From positions 124,001 to 188,000 of the forward strand of contig VBAC01000001.1 of NCBI GenBank assembly GCA_005883305.1: a stretch of 64,000 bases of DNA. Reading direction: 5' to 3'. Positions within the stretch are counted from its first letter, which is position 1. Each line of letters begins with the position of its first letter. The notes under the pieces are model-generated. The model made no database searches, had not been told where the DNA came from, and was given only the letters and a program-made list of their open reading frames with translations. This document shows, in pieces, positions 1-11,119 of this stretch. The translations under genes and the position numbers were made by a program. The stretch comes from Alphaproteobacteria bacterium (lineage in GTDB: Bacteria > Pseudomonadota > Alphaproteobacteria > Sphingomonadales > Sphingomonadaceae).

Positions 1-867
1 GTCGAAGAAGTCCCTGAGGATCGGCGGCCGTTTCGAAGCGAAGTAGAATTCGGGATCGGCGCCGACGTCCGCGTCGGCGGTGAGCTTGAGCTCGTCCTTC
101 CGGGTCACGTCCTCGATGATGCAATAAGCGTGGGTGATGCCGAGCCGGCGCAGGCTGTAGGCCCGGTGATAGCCGTTCTGGAGCAGCACGCGCGATCCGC
201 TGCGGATCGCGCTCAGGAAGTTGGATCCGAAGCCGACCATGATGCCGACCATCGCCGCGACCGGCCCGCTGCTGTCGAGGCCCTCGATCTCTGCCGGACG
301 AAGCAGCCGCGGCTCATGCGCCCGGAAATCGGTCGAGCGGCTGGTGAAGAGGAATCGGTCGCCGGAAAGGCGCTGGATCCGAACGTCCGGCAGATCGCGC
401 TCGAGCGGCAGGCAGAAGCGGAACAGGGTCTCGTCGTCCGGCTCGGGCCCGAGCGTCGCGGCCAACCGGTCGGTGAAGCTGTGCTCGACGCTGTTTTGCG
501 AGACCACCAGCTTGTCCAGCTCGACCCGTGCGAAGGTGAAGGGAAGATTGTCGAACGAGGCGCGAAACCACGGGCTCGCGCACACCGCGTCGACCAGCGG
601 CTGAAGAGCGCCGTCCAGAGGCAGACATTCCACCTCTTCGGCGATTCCCGCCTCGCTCTGCTCAAGATCGTAATAGAGATCGTTCGCGGCCCGCCATTCC
701 TCGGTCAGCTTTCGCGGATCGGCACCGCGCCCGCCCACGACCTTGTGGGCGACGAACTCGAGATAATCGCTGAGGTGCGGCTGGCCGAGCAGCCAGGCCA
801 TCTCGCAGGCGGCTTCCTGCTTGGCGCTCGGCGCGGCGATCGGCTTGTGGCGCAATGCGGCCCCCAT
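1..867 (-). CDS. Uncharacterised protein with a ParB-like motif (3' end outside window)
   Basis: The frame is open from an ATG at 867 to the window edge, giving at least 289 residues; the C-terminus is missing. I do not recognise a named family over the whole length. Near residues 225-250 the stretch NGYHRAYSLRRLGITHAYCI resembles the ParB-type nuclease/effector motif (G-[HY]-[HR]-R followed by a conserved 'lG'), which is only a weak hint. The N-terminal half is acidic and mixed, with no signal peptide and no membrane segment, so a cytoplasmic protein is likely. A purine-rich AGAGGG lies about 10 bases upstream of the ATG. It is encoded in the same direction as, and about 100 bases after, the 55-residue double-glycine peptide gene, but a strong hairpin terminator separates them. 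A role in modifying or regulating that peptide is inference from position only. Confidence 0.7.
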   Translation of the reverse strand, partial: MGAALRHKPIAAPSAKQEAACEMAWLLGQPHLSDYLEFVAHKVVGGRGADPRKLTEEWRAANDLYYDLEQSEAGIAEEVECLPLDGALQPLVDAVCASPWFRASFDNLPFTFARVELDKLVVSQNSVEHSFTDRLAATLGPEPDDETLFRFCLPLERDLPDVRIQRLSGDRFLFTSRSTDFRAHEPRLLRPAEIEGLDSSGPVAAMVGIMVGFGSNFLSAIRSGSRVLLQNGYHRAYSLRRLGITHAYCIIEDVTRKDELKLTADADVGADPEFYFASKRPPILRDFFD

Positions 868-938: not shown

Positions 939-964
939 GCCGGGGCCGCATCGGCGGCCCCGGC
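939..964 (-). terminator. Intrinsic terminator after the double-glycine peptide gene
   Basis: A perfect 11-bp GC-only stem (939-949 with 954-964) encloses a 4-base loop. On the minus strand it is followed by CCATTTTC, a short T run. It begins 10 bases after the stop codon of the small peptide gene, so that gene probably ends its own transcript here. Confidence 0.7.
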
Positions 965-973
965 GACCGGGTC

Positions 974-1141
974 TTAGTAGCAGCGATTCTTCGACCGCTT
1001 GGACTTCGACTTCTTGCTCTTGCTCTTCTTCGACTTGCTCTTGTGCGAACGGCTGCCGCCGCCGCCGCAGCTGCCGCCCTTGCGGCCGCCGCCGCCCGCG
1101 CCATAGACCTGGCTCAGTTCGTTCGTGTCGAGATCGCGCAT
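974..1141 (-). CDS. 55-aa peptide with double-glycine-type leader and Ser/Lys-repeat core
   Basis: This short gene runs from ATG at 1141 to TAA at 974, with GAGGGAG eight bases before the start and a perfect terminator hairpin just after the stop. Residues 1-15, MRDLDTNELSQVYGA, fit the bacteriocin-type double-glycine leader when cleaved after G14-A15: Leu at -12, Glu at -8, Leu at -7, Val at -4, Gly at -2, Ala at -1. The predicted 40-residue core starts with two Gly-rich runs around Cys25. It continues as alternating Ser and Lys (three repeats of the type KSKSK) and ends NRCY, so the only two cysteines sit near its two ends and it is strongly basic. Double-glycine leaders are normally cut by C39 peptidase-type ABC exporters during export; none with an evident C39 domain is in the window. 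A secreted peptide (bacteriocin-like, signalling or nucleic-acid/surface binding) is inference. Low sequence complexity is the main reason for caution. Confidence 0.7.
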   Translation of the reverse strand: MRDLDTNELSQVYGAGGGGRKGGSCGGGGSRSHKSKSKKSKSKKSKSKRSKNRCY

Positions 1142-1354
1142 TTCGAGGACTCCCTCTTCATATCCAGCGGCTTCTCACCGCGGCCTCGAAAAATATCTCG
1201 GCCGGCGTCGTCCCGCACATGATTGTTATGGTTACTGAATCCCAAATCAGGACAGCCGGCCCGGATGTCCCGGCGAAGCCGGCGCGTCTTAAGACCTTGG
1301 AAAGCCCGGCGGACGTACACTCTGCTGTCCGGAAATGGTTTCCGGGGGATGCCG

Positions 1355-1617: not shown

Positions 1618-3414
1618 ATGAGTGCGGAGCAGGCCAGCCGGATCGGGGAGAGTGGAGCGATCGTCACGGCGGCAGGATCGCTTCCCGCCACCTTGTTCGC
1701 CTTCGCCCGCACTCTGTCCGTCCGCCGTCGCCGTCAGCTCGTCGTCGTGACGGCGATGATGCTTGCCGCCGCAGTCGCGGAGATGGTGACGATCGGCGCG
1801 GTGCTTCCCTTCGTCGCGCTGATCTCGGACCCGGCCCGCGCCGTGCATCTTCCAGGATACGGCCTGTTCCTGGCCATCGCCGGGGGCGCGGATGAAAGAG
1901 AGCTCGCCTTGCGCGCGACCATCCTCTTTGCCGGGGCAATCGGGCTTTCCACCCTGGCGAGGCTGCTCATCCATCGCATGACCTACCGCTTTGCCTACGC
2001 GCTGGGTCACGAGGTCGGAACGGCCGTCTTCGCCCGAATGCTGCGCCAGCCCTACAGCCTCTATGTGAATCGCAATTCCGCCGTGGTTCTCGCTGCAGTC
2101 GACAAGGTGCAGGTGCTGGTTCACCAGGTCGTGTTGCCCCTGATGCAGGGAGTGACCTCCGCGGCGATGGCGCTCGCGATTATCGGGCTTCTCACCGCCA
2201 TCGCCCCGGCGGCCGCAGGGGCAGCTTTGCTCGCCGCTTTGGCCTATCTCGCCGTCGGCTATGCGCTTGCCCGCCGCCTTCGGGCCGAATCGCGAACGAT
2301 CGCCGCGCTGGCATCGGCGCGAATGCAGGCCGTCCAGGAGGGATTGGGAGCGATCCGGGACATCCTGCTGGACCACAGCCAGGAGGTGTTCGAGGCGCAA
2401 TTCCGCCGTCTCGATCACGCTTATCGGCGCGCTCAGACGACGGTTGGGATCGCTGCGGCTACGCCGCGTTATGTGCTCGAGGCGGCCGGGATCGTCGTCA
2501 TCGCATTGATCGCCCTTGAGATGAGCCAAGGTTCCGGGGGGATTTCCGGAGCGCTGCCGATTCTCGGTGCGCTGGCGCTGAGTGCTCAGCGCTTGCTCCC
2601 CTTGCTCAATACGGCGCATGTCGGGTGGACTCAGGCCAGCGGGCATCGCCAGTCCATGGCCGATCTGTTGGCATTGCTGAGCACCGAGACGGTCGTCAGT
2701 CGGCGCATCGCGGATCCGAAGCCGTTCACGACCGATATCGAGTTCGATCAAGTCAGCCTGCGCTGGCCCCGGGGGGAGCAATCGTTGCGAGCCGTGAGCC
2801 TGACGATCGCCAAGGGCGAGCGTATCGGCTTGGTCGGCAAGACCGGCAGCGGCAAAAGCAGCCTCCTCGACCTTCTGATGGGCCTGATCGAGCCCACGAC
2901 GGGGGAAATTCGGATCGACGGACGCAAGCTCGACGACGCCGGACGCGCCAACTGGCAGGCGCAGATCGCCCATGTTCCCCAGAACATCTATCTCGCCGAT
3001 GCGTCCGTCGCCGCGAACATCGCCTTCGCGGAGGCGGAGATAGACATGGCGCGGGTGCGTGAGGCGGCACAACGAGCGCAAATCCACGACTTCATCGAGC
3101 GCCTGCCGAATGGCTATGCGACGTTCGTCGGAGATCGCGGATCCTGGCTGTCGGGCGGCCAGCGTCAGCGCATCGCCATCGCCCGGGCTTTCTACAAGCG
3201 GGCCGACGTGCTGATTCTCGACGAGGCGACCGGCCATCTCGACCGCGAAACCGAGAATGCGGTGGTGAGGGCGGTCGCCGCGGCAGGGCCGGACGTCACC
3301 ATAGTCTTCGTCGCCCACCGGGAATCCGCGTTGACCCTGTGCGACCGCATTTTGCGCCTCGAAGCCGGACGCCTGTGCGAGGATCCCGCTTCCTACCGCC
3401 TGGCGGCGCATTAG
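1618..3414 (+). CDS. ABC exporter, fused permease and ATPase (PglK/MsbA-like)
   Basis: This 598-residue half-transporter joins a six-helix membrane domain (about residues 40-310) to an ATPase domain (about 370-590). The Walker A motif GKTGSGKSS starts near residue 407, the signature LSGGQRQR near 511, Walker B VLILDEAT near 530, and the H-loop is FVAHR. There is no C39 peptidase domain at the N-terminus. The frame is open upstream to 1219, but that extension is Arg/Ser/Pro-rich and not protein-like, so ATG 1618 (MSAEQASR) was chosen. Exporters of this layout move lipids, lipid-linked glycans or peptides out of the cytoplasm. The two glycosyltransferase genes directly downstream (7-base gap, then overlap) favour a glycan or glycolipid flippase of the PglK type. 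A peptide substrate cannot be ruled out. Confidence 0.85.
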   Translation: MSAEQASRIGESGAIVTAAGSLPATLFAFARTLSVRRRRQLVVVTAMMLAAAVAEMVTIGAVLPFVALISDPARAVHLPGYGLFLAIAGGADERELALRATILFAGAIGLSTLARLLIHRMTYRFAYALGHEVGTAVFARMLRQPYSLYVNRNSAVVLAAVDKVQVLVHQVVLPLMQGVTSAAMALAIIGLLTAIAPAAAGAALLAALAYLAVGYALARRLRAESRTIAALASARMQAVQEGLGAIRDILLDHSQEVFEAQFRRLDHAYRRAQTTVGIAAATPRYVLEAAGIVVIALIALEMSQGSGGISGALPILGALALSAQRLLPLLNTAHVGWTQASGHRQSMADLLALLSTETVVSRRIADPKPFTTDIEFDQVSLRWPRGEQSLRAVSLTIAKGERIGLVGKTGSGKSSLLDLLMGLIEPTTGEIRIDGRKLDDAGRANWQAQIAHVPQNIYLADASVAANIAFAEAEIDMARVREAAQRAQIHDFIERLPNGYATFVGDRGSWLSGGQRQRIAIARAFYKRADVLILDEATGHLDRETENAVVRAVAAAGPDVTIVFVAHRESALTLCDRILRLEAGRLCEDPASYRLAAH

Positions 3415-6676: not shown

Positions 6677-7981
6677 CTATTGCTCGCGGAACGCCGTCTC
6701 GCGGATGCGGGTGATCGGGGTCAGCAGATATTGCAGGATGGTCCGCTTCTCGCCGAGCAGGTCGACTTCGGCGACCATGCCGGCACCGATCGGCAGCGCC
6801 TGGCCGCCGGGCGCGCGAAGCTCGGCCTGATCGGTTCGGACCCGGACGATGTAGAAAGTCTCGCCGGTCCGCTCCTCGGCCACGGCGTCGGGCGAGATGC
6901 CGACCACTCGGCCTTCGAGCACTCCGTAGATCGAGCGGTCGTAGGCGGTGATCGCCACCCGCGCATGCTGGCCGAGATGGACGAAGGCGATATCGTCCGG
7001 CTTGACCCGCGCCTCGATCAGCAGCGTGTCCTCGGAAGGGACGATCTCGACGATCGGCTCGCCGGCGCGAAGCGTGCCGCCCCGGGTGGTGACCAGCACC
7101 CGGTTGACTCGCCCGGGCAGCGGCGCGCGCAGCACGGTCCGCTCCAGGCGATTGGCAAGGCCGGGCAGGGCGCGCTGGCGCGCGGCAAATTCGGCCTGGG
7201 CCGTCGCGAGCTCGGTGGCCGCCTGGGCGCGCCATTCCTGCTGCGCCTGGGCGAGCGTGGATTGGGCCTCGGCGACCCCGCCGCGGGCGCGGCTGACGGT
7301 CTCGGCCGCGGCCTGCATCTCGTTGCGCGCGATATCGGCGGCGCTCTGCGCCTGGACGAGGCTCAGGCGCGGCTCGATTCCGCCCTCCACGAGCGGGCGC
7401 AGGAGGTTGGCCTCGTCGCGCCTCTGTTGATAGGCGTCGGTGCGGGCGCGGTAGGTTGCCTCGGCCTCGGCGACGCTTCGCTCGACCTGGGTGAGCCGCG
7501 CCCGGGCCGCTCCGACGATTGAGGCGAGATCGCCCATGCGCGAGGCGTGAAGCGCCTGCTCGATCCTGATCTGGTCGAGAAGCGCGGGGACGCGGGTGGC
7601 AGGGTAAGCGGGCTCCCGCCCGGTGATCTCGGCCTCCAGCCGGGCGATCTTGATGTTCAGCGCGCTCACCGTCGCTTCGCCGCTGCCGAACTCGGCGCCG
7701 GTCTGGGTCGGGTCGAGCCGGATGAGGACGTCGCCGGCGCGGACCTGCTGGCCCTGGCGGACGAGGATGTCCTGCACCACGCCGCCTTCGAGGTTCGAAA
7801 CCACCTGCAGCCTTGAGCTCGGCACGACGCGGCCCTGGCCGCGTACCGTCCGGTCGAGCTCGGTGAGCGCGGCCCAGACGAAGAAGGCGCCCATGAAGGC
7901 GACGATGAACCACAACAGCATGTTCGACGCCGTGCGCGGCTTGATCCGCGTCGTCAGGTCCTCGAGATGGGTCCCGTGCAT
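6677..7981 (-). CDS. HlyD-family type I secretion adaptor
   Basis: This 434-residue membrane-fusion protein has a short cytoplasmic N-terminus and one membrane helix (about residues 20-40, MLLWFIVAFMGAFFVWAAL). A lipoyl/barrel half (VVSNLEGGVVQDILVRQGQQ) precedes a long Ala/Glu/Arg-rich coiled coil (about 120-275), and the returning lipoyl half carries the HlyD signature region LRAPLPGRVNRVLV. The C-terminal beta domain ends near RTILQYLLTPI. In the LapC/HlyD family it links the inner-membrane ABC transporter to TolC across the periplasm. It follows the ABC gene with a 4-base gap and is followed at once by a glycosyltransferase. No RTX or other obvious large substrate gene lies in the window. 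Confidence 0.93.
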   Translation of the reverse strand: MHGTHLEDLTTRIKPRTASNMLLWFIVAFMGAFFVWAALTELDRTVRGQGRVVPSSRLQVVSNLEGGVVQDILVRQGQQVRAGDVLIRLDPTQTGAEFGSGEATVSALNIKIARLEAEITGREPAYPATRVPALLDQIRIEQALHASRMGDLASIVGAARARLTQVERSVAEAEATYRARTDAYQQRRDEANLLRPLVEGGIEPRLSLVQAQSAADIARNEMQAAAETVSRARGGVAEAQSTLAQAQQEWRAQAATELATAQAEFAARQRALPGLANRLERTVLRAPLPGRVNRVLVTTRGGTLRAGEPIVEIVPSEDTLLIEARVKPDDIAFVHLGQHARVAITAYDRSIYGVLEGRVVGISPDAVAEERTGETFYIVRVRTDQAELRAPGGQALPIGAGMVAEVDLLGEKRTILQYLLTPITRIRETAFREQ

Positions 7982-7985
7982 GAGG

Positions 7986-9713
7986 CTATGCCGCTTTCGG
8001 CCGCATGATCTGCTTCAGCACATTGTCGCGCGGGCCGTCGGAGACGACCTTGCCCTTGTCCATCAGGATGATGCGCTGGACCAGCTGGAGCAGCGGAGGG
8101 CGGTGCGTGATGAGGATCAGGGTGCGGCCCTTCAGCTCCTCCTGGAGCCGCTGGATCAGAGCGCCTTCGGTCTGCGCGTCCATCGCGCTGGAAGGCTCGT
8201 CCATGACGAGGATCGGCGGCCGGCCCGCAAGCGCCCGGGCGATCGAGATGGACTGGCGCTGCCCGCCCGAAAGCCCCTCTCCGCGATCCGCGAGCCGCAG
8301 GTCGTAGCCGTTGGCGATCTGGCCCATGAACTGGTGGGTGCCGGATATTTGCGAGGCGCGCAGCAATTCCTCGTCGGTCACTCCGGCCCGGCCGAGCGCG
8401 ATATTCTCGCGCACCGTGCCCGTCAGAAGCACGCTCTCCTGCATCGCCGCGCCGACATTGGCCCTAAGGCTAGCCGGATCGAGCTGGCGGATGTCGGTGC
8501 CGTCGACCATGATCAGCCCTTCCTCGGGCGGATAGAGGCCGAGGATGAGGCGTGCGATGGTCGATTTGCCGGATCCGACCCGGCCGAGCAGGGCGACATG
8601 CTCGCCGGGCTCCACCGTGAAGCTGAGGCCGTCGAGCGCCCGCTCGGGCGCGCCGGGATAGCGGAAGCCGACGTTTCGGAACTCGATCTTGCCTTCGACT
8701 CCGGAGAGCTTGAGCGCCTCGCCCTCCGGCCCCTCGGACGGCATCTGCATCATCTCGTTGATCTGGCGGTAGGCGGTCCGCGTCGAGGTGATGCGCGAGA
8801 GCAATTGCGAGATCTGGGCCAGAGGCGCGATCGCCCGGCCCGCGAGGATCGAGCAGGCGATGAGGCCGCCCATCGTGAGATTGCGGACCGCGATCTCGTG
8901 CACGCCGACGATCACCACGCCGGCATAGGAGATTGTTCCGGCCGAGGTGGCGAAGGTCACTCCGATCGTCGCCACGAGCCGCTGCCTCAGCGAGCTGTCG
9001 GAATGCTGCTGGATCGCCTTCAGCCAGCGCCGCGAGAGCAGGGGCGCGGCGCCGGAGGTCTTCACCGTCTCCAGCCCGCCGATCGCCTCGACCAGGACGG
9101 ACTGCTTCTGCAGCCCCTCGCCCATCGCCCGCGCCGAAAGCCGCTCGAGCGCCGGATGGGTCAGCCAGCCGACCATGACGACCAGCGGAACCATCAGGCC
9201 GGGCACGAACACCACCGGGCCGCCGATGATCGCCACCAATATGAGGGTGAGAAAGATGAACGGAACGTCGACGACAGCGGTCAGGGTCGCCGAGGCGAAG
9301 AAGTCGCGCAAGGTCTCCAGCTCGCGCATCATGCCGGCCAGAGCGCCGGTCGAGCCTTTCTTGAGCTCGAGCCGCATCGCCAGCAGGCGGTCGAACACCA
9401 CCTCGCCGATGTCGCGGTCGATATTGGCGCCGGCATGGTCGACGAAATAGGCGCGCAGCAGCTTCAGGATGAAATCGAAGATGACGACGATGCCGAGGCC
9501 GATGGTCAGCGCGACCAGCGAGGAGGTCGCGTTGTTGGGCACCACGCGGTCGTAGACCGTCATCGTGAAGAGCGAGGTGAGAAGGCCGAAGATGTTGATG
9601 AAGACCGCCGCGAGCGCGACCTTCCAATAGGTCGATCGGTTCGCCCGCATCGGCCCCGTAAGCCACTCGGCGAGCCGCGGCTTCGGAATCTTGATGAGGC
9701 TGTCGCTGCTCAT
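7986..9713 (-). CDS. Type I secretion ABC transporter, LapB-like, without N-terminal C39 domain
   Basis: This 575-residue fused permease-ATPase has membrane helices from about residue 30 (YWKVALAAVFINIFGLLTSL) to 310. TVYDRVVPNNA is the sequence typical of LapB/LssB-type type I transporters. Walker A GRVGSGKST is near residue 376, signature LSGGQRQS near 481 and Walker B VMDEPSSAMD near 503. Many LapB-family members begin with a 120-residue C39-like (often inactive) domain; this one begins with only about 28 residues before helix 1, so it cannot cleave a double-glycine leader itself. It overlaps tolC by four bases (ATGA) and is followed by hlyD. The signature ends in QRQS rather than QRQR, as in several LapB relatives. 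Likely substrates are adhesins or peptides exported in one step. Confidence 0.92.
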   Translation of the reverse strand: MSSDSLIKIPKPRLAEWLTGPMRANRSTYWKVALAAVFINIFGLLTSLFTMTVYDRVVPNNATSSLVALTIGLGIVVIFDFILKLLRAYFVDHAGANIDRDIGEVVFDRLLAMRLELKKGSTGALAGMMRELETLRDFFASATLTAVVDVPFIFLTLILVAIIGGPVVFVPGLMVPLVVMVGWLTHPALERLSARAMGEGLQKQSVLVEAIGGLETVKTSGAAPLLSRRWLKAIQQHSDSSLRQRLVATIGVTFATSAGTISYAGVVIVGVHEIAVRNLTMGGLIACSILAGRAIAPLAQISQLLSRITSTRTAYRQINEMMQMPSEGPEGEALKLSGVEGKIEFRNVGFRYPGAPERALDGLSFTVEPGEHVALLGRVGSGKSTIARLILGLYPPEEGLIMVDGTDIRQLDPASLRANVGAAMQESVLLTGTVRENIALGRAGVTDEELLRASQISGTHQFMGQIANGYDLRLADRGEGLSGGQRQSISIARALAGRPPILVMDEPSSAMDAQTEGALIQRLQEELKGRTLILITHRPPLLQLVQRIILMDKGKVVSDGPRDNVLKQIMRPKAA

Positions 9714-11119
9714 CCTTCACCTCGCAGCTGGTCGGTGTCGATGTGCAGCGTGTCGAGCAACCGGCCCATGCGCGATAGCAGCACGTAGCGTGCCGCGTCC
9801 AATTCGGTGAGGCCCTGGATGTAGGCGGTGGCGGCCTCGAAATAGCTGTCCTCGGCGTCGACCACGTCGATCAGCGATCCCCGTGCGACCCGGAAGCGCT
9901 CGACGATCACGTCGCGCGAGCGGCGGTTGGCGACGTAGGAGGCTTCGAGCGCCTCGAGCTGGTCCTGGAGCGCCTTCAGGTCGGACCAGGCGATCGAGGC
10001 GTCGCGCCCGGCCTCCTCGCGGATCCGCTGGGCCCTCGCGTCCGCCTGGCGCGCGCGGGCCTCGCCTTGCTCGGCGCGCGCGTCGGCCGCGCCGAAAATT
10101 CGGTAGCGCATGCCGACCCGGGCGCGGATGTCGTAGTCGCGCGGATTTTCGAACACACCATAGCGTCCGGCGTCGATTCCCACCGCGACCTGGGGAAGGC
10201 GGTCGGCGCGCATGGCCCGGGCTTCGTCGCGGGCGGCGTCCGACTGGGCCTCTGCGCTCCGCACCGGCGCCGAGGCTTCGGCTGCGAGCACGACCTCGTC
10301 GCGGGTCGGCGGAAGCGCGGCGGGGATCGGCGCGCGGTCGATCCGCGGGGCGGGCGATCCGATCACCTCGGCATAGCGCGCCTCGGCATTGGCGGCGAGG
10401 CGGCGAAAGCGAGCGAGGCGGGACTGGGCCTGGGCGATGTAGGAATCGACCCGGGCGAGATCGCCCTCCGCCGAGACGCCCTGGCGGATTCGCTCTTCGA
10501 CCGCCGAGCGAAGCTCGTGCTGGCTGGCGACGAACGCCTCGGTCAGCGCGACCAGCGAGCGAAAGGCGAAGACGTCGTACCAGGAGGCGATGGCGCCGAG
10601 CGCGATCCGGTCCGCGGCCACCTCGAGGTCGGCGCCGGCCGAGCGCAGCCGTGCCCCCGCGGCCGTAATTCGCCGCGCGGTGGCTCCGAAATCGAAGACG
10701 GTCTGCTGTACGGTGAGGATCGCGTCGGTGCGCTGCTCGGGCCGCGAGCGCTCGAGGATGTTGTCGGGATCGTTGGAGAATTCGCGCGAGATGACCCGGT
10801 AGGAGGTGAGCGAGAGATCGACGCTCGGCAGGCCCATCGCGCGCGCTTCCTCGAGCGCGGCGAGCGCCTCGTCCTCGCCGGCGGCGGATTCGGCGGTGCC
10901 GGGATGGCGCTCGACCGCGGTGGCGATCGCCTCGCGGAACTGCTCGTAGCCGCTATGCTGGCGGGCGAGCGTCAGAACCGGGTCGTTGGCGAAGTCGATC
11001 GACATCGGCCGGCCGCTGGCAGAGGGCAGGGGCGCGCTCGATGCAGCCGTCTGCGCCAGCGCCTGGGCGCTGGTCGCGAGACAGGCGAAAGCCATCGCAA
11101 CGCGTGATTTGATGCGCAC
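9710..11119 (-). CDS. TolC-family outer membrane efflux/secretion protein
   Basis: This 469-residue protein has a cleavable signal peptide (MRIKSRVAMAFACLATSAQALA). It shows the internally duplicated TolC pattern: two stretches of long Ala/Arg/Glu-rich helices, with SVDLSLTSYRVISR and LPQVAVGIDAGRYGVFENP as the paired beta-strand segments. VVDAEDSYFEAATAYIQGL is close to the C-terminus. It would form the trimeric outer-membrane channel of the type I system. It is the first gene of the operon and overlaps the ABC gene start by four bases. About 100 bases separate it from the upstream nhaA stop, room for its own promoter, though I see no clear -35/-10 pair. Confidence 0.92.
   Translation of the reverse strand: MRIKSRVAMAFACLATSAQALAQTAASSAPLPSASGRPMSIDFANDPVLTLARQHSGYEQFREAIATAVERHPGTAESAAGEDEALAALEEARAMGLPSVDLSLTSYRVISREFSNDPDNILERSRPEQRTDAILTVQQTVFDFGATARRITAAGARLRSAGADLEVAADRIALGAIASWYDVFAFRSLVALTEAFVASQHELRSAVEERIRQGVSAEGDLARVDSYIAQAQSRLARFRRLAANAEARYAEVIGSPAPRIDRAPIPAALPPTRDEVVLAAEASAPVRSAEAQSDAARDEARAMRADRLPQVAVGIDAGRYGVFENPRDYDIRARVGMRYRIFGAADARAEQGEARARQADARAQRIREEAGRDASIAWSDLKALQDQLEALEASYVANRRSRDVIVERFRVARGSLIDVVDAEDSYFEAATAYIQGLTELDAARYVLLSRMGRLLDTLHIDTDQLRGEG

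Follow-up and report, generated by a model that had tools for sequence, protein, structure and literature searches.

Microcin-type exporters are usually viewed as delivering antibacterial weapons. For the class II microcins of Enterobacterales, PMC9746304 describes an export set made up of a precursor whose leader ends in GG or GA, a C39 peptidase-ABC exporter, a membrane-fusion protein and a TolC-like protein. A locus comparable to this set was analysed in 64,000 nucleotides of DNA from an alphaproteobacterium of the Sphingomonadaceae (assembly GCA_005883305.1, contig VBAC01000001.1, positions 124,001 to 188,000, forward strand; the whole stretch is called the window below). It consists of a gene for a 55-residue precursor peptide (974-1141, minus strand), in which a double-glycine leader is followed by a Ser/Lys repeat core, and a gene for a ParB/sulfiredoxin-like partner protein (1-867, minus strand). 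As in the class II microcins, a GA leader, a C39-ABC exporter, and membrane-fusion and TolC-like genes are all present. Unlike in the class II microcins, the core is a low-complexity repeat of Ser/Thr and Lys/Arg that is very poor in hydrophobic residues, the place expected for a variable immunity gene is taken by a conserved partner, and the loci are found mostly in Alphaproteobacteria. The locus is an export locus of the class II microcin type: the principle of export is known, the cargo family is undescribed, and the partner probably uses a nucleotide. A literature search was judged on titles and abstract beginnings, and none of the matches listed was about this locus.

The reading frame at 974-1141 on the minus strand translates into the 55 residues (plus stop codon) given in the initial annotation (MRDLDTNELSQVYGAGGGGRKGGSCGGGGSRSHKSKSKKSKSKKSKSKRSKNRCY), with the N terminus MRDL-x3-EL-x2-VYGA. 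The leader MRDLDTNELSQVYGA (1097-1141, minus strand) is predicted to be cut by a C39 peptidase after A15, a site suggested by leader conservation and by the linked C39 exporter; counted from there, every leader position that had been quoted is present (L at -12, E at -8, L at -7, V at -4, GA at -2/-1). The core of 40 residues (977-1096, minus strand) has a net charge of +15 and is composed of a Gly-rich part, the Ser/Lys repeat and an NRCY end; its Cys residues are residues 25 and 54 of the precursor. The proposed ribosome site was likewise recovered as a Shine-Dalgarno-like GAGGGAG (1150-1156, minus strand), read from the sequence 8 bases 5' of the ATG. The precursor had no match in Pfam or NCBIfam, and its PHROGs match, at E 0.048 to a family whose function is not known, gave nothing usable. 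One homologue matched the NCBIfam family NF033629 (RiPP_CPAC) at E 0.035, but its score was 14.3 bits where the cut-off is 60, and membership was rejected.

Homologues were sought with the single sequence in 26 genomes of the same genus; 23 of them gave a match at E <=1, mostly weak and low-complexity, and those bearing a leader were kept. Leader-bearing precursors were found in this first search in seven of the 26 genomes (the window's own included, and one genome with two tandem genes), and that of an eighth, G022, was located via its ParB-like gene. Such a leader stands before a variable cationic core of Ser/Thr and Lys/Arg at 22 loci, which belong to Alphaproteobacteria, Steroidobacter and one metagenome-assembled genome of Candidatus Eisenbacteria. 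M1, R2, L4, E8, V12 and G14 are invariant in all 18 aligned precursors, while the other positions drift. As the leader recurs both in genomes of the same genus and in distant taxa with six positions invariant, its sequence conservation is more than chance.

The cores are built from different repeats, among them KSKSKKSKSK, GSKGSKGSK, SRSRSRRSRRSRR, NTNKQNTNK, KHSTKKHST and SNSNSNSRSRS. Over 19 tabulated cores the Ser/Thr content is 16-36%, that of Lys/Arg 20-50% and the net charge +9 to +16; of 18 precursors tabulated for the hydrophobic residues FWYILVM, 17 have 0-2 of them in the core and L055 has five. Together with the linked C39 peptidase-ABC exporter described below, the conservation of the leader over varying cores gives strong support to the double-glycine leader of the initial annotation. 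The expectation that core repeat number would vary under a conserved leader was borne out in part: the leader is kept, and core length and repeat unit vary, but no close pair differing solely in repeat number was found. The tandem precursors of G018 (cores of 40 and 43 residues) were rejected as such a pair, since each holds three KHST units. Disulfide closure, which had been suggested for the window's peptide, is not a feature of the family, because five of the 23 ParB-adjacent cores (L048, L054, L057, L074, L075) are without Cys; three more (L047, L076, L077) have a single one.

The partner gene directly follows the precursor gene at all 22 loci and encodes a protein of about 319 residues; of the window's protein the first 289 of 319 residues are encoded in 1-867, and the remaining 30 lie beyond the window edge. 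Linkage was also counted from the side of the partner. A pattern-based scan (one genome per species), the patterns of which reach only fairly close kin, gave 15 loci; relatives were present in 3 of 298 genomes of the family, 8 of 26 of the genus, 3 of 398 of the phylum and on four plasmids. These sample sets overlap and include the window's own genome; 25 distinct loci were used for counting. In 22 of the 25 the partner gene is immediately preceded, on the same strand, by the gene of a leader-bearing precursor, and the 22 linked partners are at least 42% identical to the protein of the window or of L045. The plasmids were used to test the predicted linkage, and the precursor was found beside the partner on all four. 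In the 298 family genomes the precursor occurs in the same three as the partner, by using a precursor profile that had itself been built from partner-linked rows. No leader-bearing precursor was found near the partner relatives in L058 (37% identity), L063 (7788-8714, minus strand; 32%) and L064 (9185-10111, plus strand; 32%), which separate on their own side of the partner tree (support 96/99); the ParB-like family exists outside this locus type.

The locus occurs on chromosomes and plasmids, and its cultured hosts include Sphingomonas parva, Hansschlegelia zhihuaiae and Blastomonas sp. RAC04. The gene tables of the plasmids label the partner "hypothetical protein", as they do three of the four plasmid precursors; that of Paracoccus is absent from its (incomplete) table. 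Some loci carry further genes, a hint of variety: a 2OG-Fe(II) oxygenase gene directly follows the partner gene in L049, L050 and L076, FemA/FemB-type genes are present in L055 and L077, and in L074 and L075 there are genes for a response regulator and for a probable sensor kinase, labelled "ATP-binding protein". The "perfect terminator" reported after the precursor gene was revised. A strong hairpin does follow the stop codon (939-964, minus strand; 11 uninterrupted pairs, z -3.48 for a 61-nucleotide stretch), but the T run after it is just four bases long, the terminator scan did not call it, and it sits between the precursor gene and the ParB-like gene that comes next on that strand. Comparable structure is common in the family: the 100 nucleotides 3' of the precursor gene reach z -2 or lower against dinucleotide shuffles at 19 of the 22 loci (median z -2.6), the others being L052, L074 and L077.

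The only C39 peptidase hit of the genome lies about 3 kb from the precursor gene, just outside the window. It belongs to a C39-ABC protein of 730 residues, the gene of which adjoins that of an HlyD-type adaptor (L002, 6558-7790, plus strand; HlyD_3 match), and the latter is divergent from a gene for an outer-membrane efflux protein of the TolC type (L002, 5010-6407, minus strand; OEP match). The C39 domain contains a Cys in the motif QSEAAEC and a later His and Asp, which we take to be the catalytic triad. Counting a C39-ABC gene in the fetched stretch or a C39 hit within about 3 kb, the exporter is close to the precursor at 19 of the 22 loci; the order precursor, ParB-like, HlyD, C39-ABC is found on one strand in L048, L054, L055, L056, L057, L074, L075 and L077. 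At the other three loci no C39-ABC gene was found: in L047 in the 7.3 kb examined of a contig that starts 154 bases before the precursor, in L051 on the whole 20-kb contig (identical to L038), with C39 hits on other contigs of that genome, and in L053 on a 6.6-kb contig from a genome in which there was no C39 hit. From this genomic evidence the precursor is very probably exported by the C39 system.

Other transport and transfer genes of the window were considered. An LssB-type type I secretion operon (HlyD, ABC and TolC-like; 6677-11119, minus strand) was rejected as the exporter because its ABC protein matches the 696-position model only from position 133, without the N-terminal peptidase-like part. 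A gene for an MsbA/PglK-like ABC transporter (1618-3414, plus strand) adjoins the precursor gene and has a 48% identical relative beside the homologous locus in one of eight stretches examined, L038, which is the contig of L051 and is without C39-ABC; the protein was not counted as part of the locus. The flanking glycosyltransferases were rejected as glycosylating enzymes: at E 1e-5 none of the three had a match in these eight stretches, although the locus is present in six of them.

The partner protein had no match in Pfam or NCBIfam, its L045 homologue had none in PHROGs, no Pfam ParB model was matched in a scan of 16 members with an E limit of 10, and no phage record matched the protein. 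Its AlphaFold model resembles members of the ParB/sulfiredoxin superfamily such as sulfiredoxin and free serine kinase; the predicted fold spans roughly residues 93-301. With ParB, sulfiredoxin and the free serine kinases SerK and SbnI it has the GxxR motif in common, here as NGxHR, of which N231, G232, H234 and R235 are invariant in all 25 partner proteins. GxxR is described as a nucleotide-binding motif in PMC12704722. The partner quite likely binds a nucleotide; no position in it could be assigned as the counterpart of SerK's catalytic Glu. The partner differs from the superfamily in its linkage to a secreted peptide, in the absence of a Pfam ParB match and in an additional N-terminal helical part. 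When modelled alone from alignment A4 (15 of the 16 proteins of alignment A3), this part gave a poor model (pLDDT 78.2, pTM 0.48), and no Foldseek match in the PDB was below E 6.5, a result that is evidence neither for a new fold nor against one. To our knowledge, such a fold is not known from peptide-export loci of this kind.

Six leader kin with other, weakly charged cores were found in G000, G240, G020 and G023. None has a ParB-like neighbour in the stretches read, though G000 and G240 have one elsewhere. Their K+R fraction is 0.04-0.15 against 0.20-0.50 for partner-linked cores (p 3e-4; the samples are small and non-independent). One, in the genome of the window itself (L072, 8119-8307, plus strand; G000 contig 1, about 1330118), has the leader MRDLHAFELSQVSGAG and a weakly charged core rich in Cys, Pro, Thr, Asn and Gly; it is directly preceded by a 2OG-Fe(II) oxygenase gene (L072, 7172-7966), the product of which shares 53-54% identity with the oxygenases encoded next to the ParB-like gene in L049 and L050. 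Other small leader-bearing reading frames with weakly charged cores, rich in Gly, Asn, Ser and Pro, were seen in L073 (8267-8581 and 8604-8753), L039 (9858-10245) and L040 (6300-6515), two of them with a GPGNSGPGDKNS stretch in common; these are possibly a second cargo class. On the Blastomonas plasmid (L076, 3516-3698, plus strand) a second leader peptide with an SGAG site and a core rich in Pro, Lys, Asn and Gly follows a 2OG-Fe(II) oxygenase gene, so that both cargo types seem to be held in one locus.

The following account is considered moderately likely as a whole. The 15-residue leader would be recognised, and cut after Gly-Ala, by the C39 domain of the exporter whose gene lies about 1.0-3.2 kb from that of the precursor, and the cationic core of 40 residues would leave through the ABC protein, the HlyD-type adaptor and the TolC-like protein, as anatomy and synteny suggest. 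Before export the partner would act on the precursor, with a nucleotide probably bound through NGxHR, and modify Ser/Thr of the repeat. Such modification is the most attractive explanation of why leader and partner stay constant while the Ser/Thr-basic core drifts, and the Ser modification suggested in the initial annotation is made more plausible by the conserved ParB/sulfiredoxin-like partner. Phosphoryl transfer would be the simplest chemistry and is put forward tentatively. The exported product may work by bulk charge, binding anionic surfaces or matrix as an extracellular polycation or, if phosphorylated, a polyampholyte. This role is weakly favoured over that of a receptor-specific or membrane-lytic microcin because Cys is not conserved in the core, hydrophobic residues are nearly absent from it, and its composition is kept while its sequence drifts.

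A rival view takes the peptide as an ordinary, unmodified antibacterial class II microcin, with the ParB-like neighbour as its immunity protein or a regulator. The GA-site leader, C39-ABC protein, HlyD-type adaptor and TolC-like protein are the very export set given in PMC9746304, and the response regulators of L074 and L075 (with their probable sensor kinase) and the FemA/FemB-type genes of L055 and L077 would suit such a system. The same paper, however, describes immunity proteins as highly variable, like their microcins, whereas the partner is conserved (36-64% identity to the L045 protein in 15 other rows from distant taxa) while the cores vary freely. Reading of the loci revealed no immunity-like gene, though no systematic search for one was made; the extra gene that recurs is the ParB-like one. 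Membrane-active microcins, moreover, are not known to be so poor in hydrophobic residues as these cores, and the view is considered unlikely. Ser/Lys-rich repeats also resemble basic nucleic-acid-binding tails, and a cytoplasmic protein with such a tail might carry a leader-like N terminus by chance; this is highly improbable, as the leader is the most conserved part of the protein and C39-ABC is linked at most loci.

The partner might instead be a non-catalytic chaperone or escort, a nucleotide switch with a ParB fold; it would bind the leader and shield the polycationic core from nucleic acids until export. A conserved leader and partner beside a drifting core do suggest that the partner reads the leader, and ParB folds as switches or non-catalytic binders are discussed in PMC12704722. 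The association of the partner with cationic Ser/Thr cores and not with the other leader kin (a small sample) fits an enzyme and a charge-shielding escort equally; the escort is regarded as doubtful. Among proteins modified on such repeats, diatom silaffins and eukaryotic SR-repeat proteins offer an analogy only: their repeats, in which Ser alternates with Lys or Arg as it does here, are known phosphorylation substrates, whereas the present peptides are short, bacterial and equipped with a C39-type leader, no homology is claimed, and phosphorylation is here only hypothetical. The most specific form of the modification reading, in which a ParB/sulfiredoxin-fold enzyme reads the double-glycine leader and phosphorylates the Ser-Lys, Ser-Arg or Thr-Lys repeat, and C39-ABC then releases silaffin-like or SR-repeat-like polyampholyte peptides, is offered as a speculative proposal; it would make these a hitherto undescribed class of secreted bacterial peptides.

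In these bacteria, microcin-type machinery is tied to peptides of low complexity and strong positive charge, built on Ser/Thr and Lys/Arg, and to a conserved protein with a predicted fold to which serine kinases also belong. Should the partner modify the repeat, it would represent a new modifying-enzyme fold for ribosomal peptides and the locus a bacterial source of repeat phosphopeptides; were the phosphorylation reading true, a ParB-fold peptide kinase would be a new kind of peptide-modifying enzyme. If it does not modify the repeat, the loci would still define an unannotated family of secreted peptides, encoded in short operons on chromosomes and plasmids.
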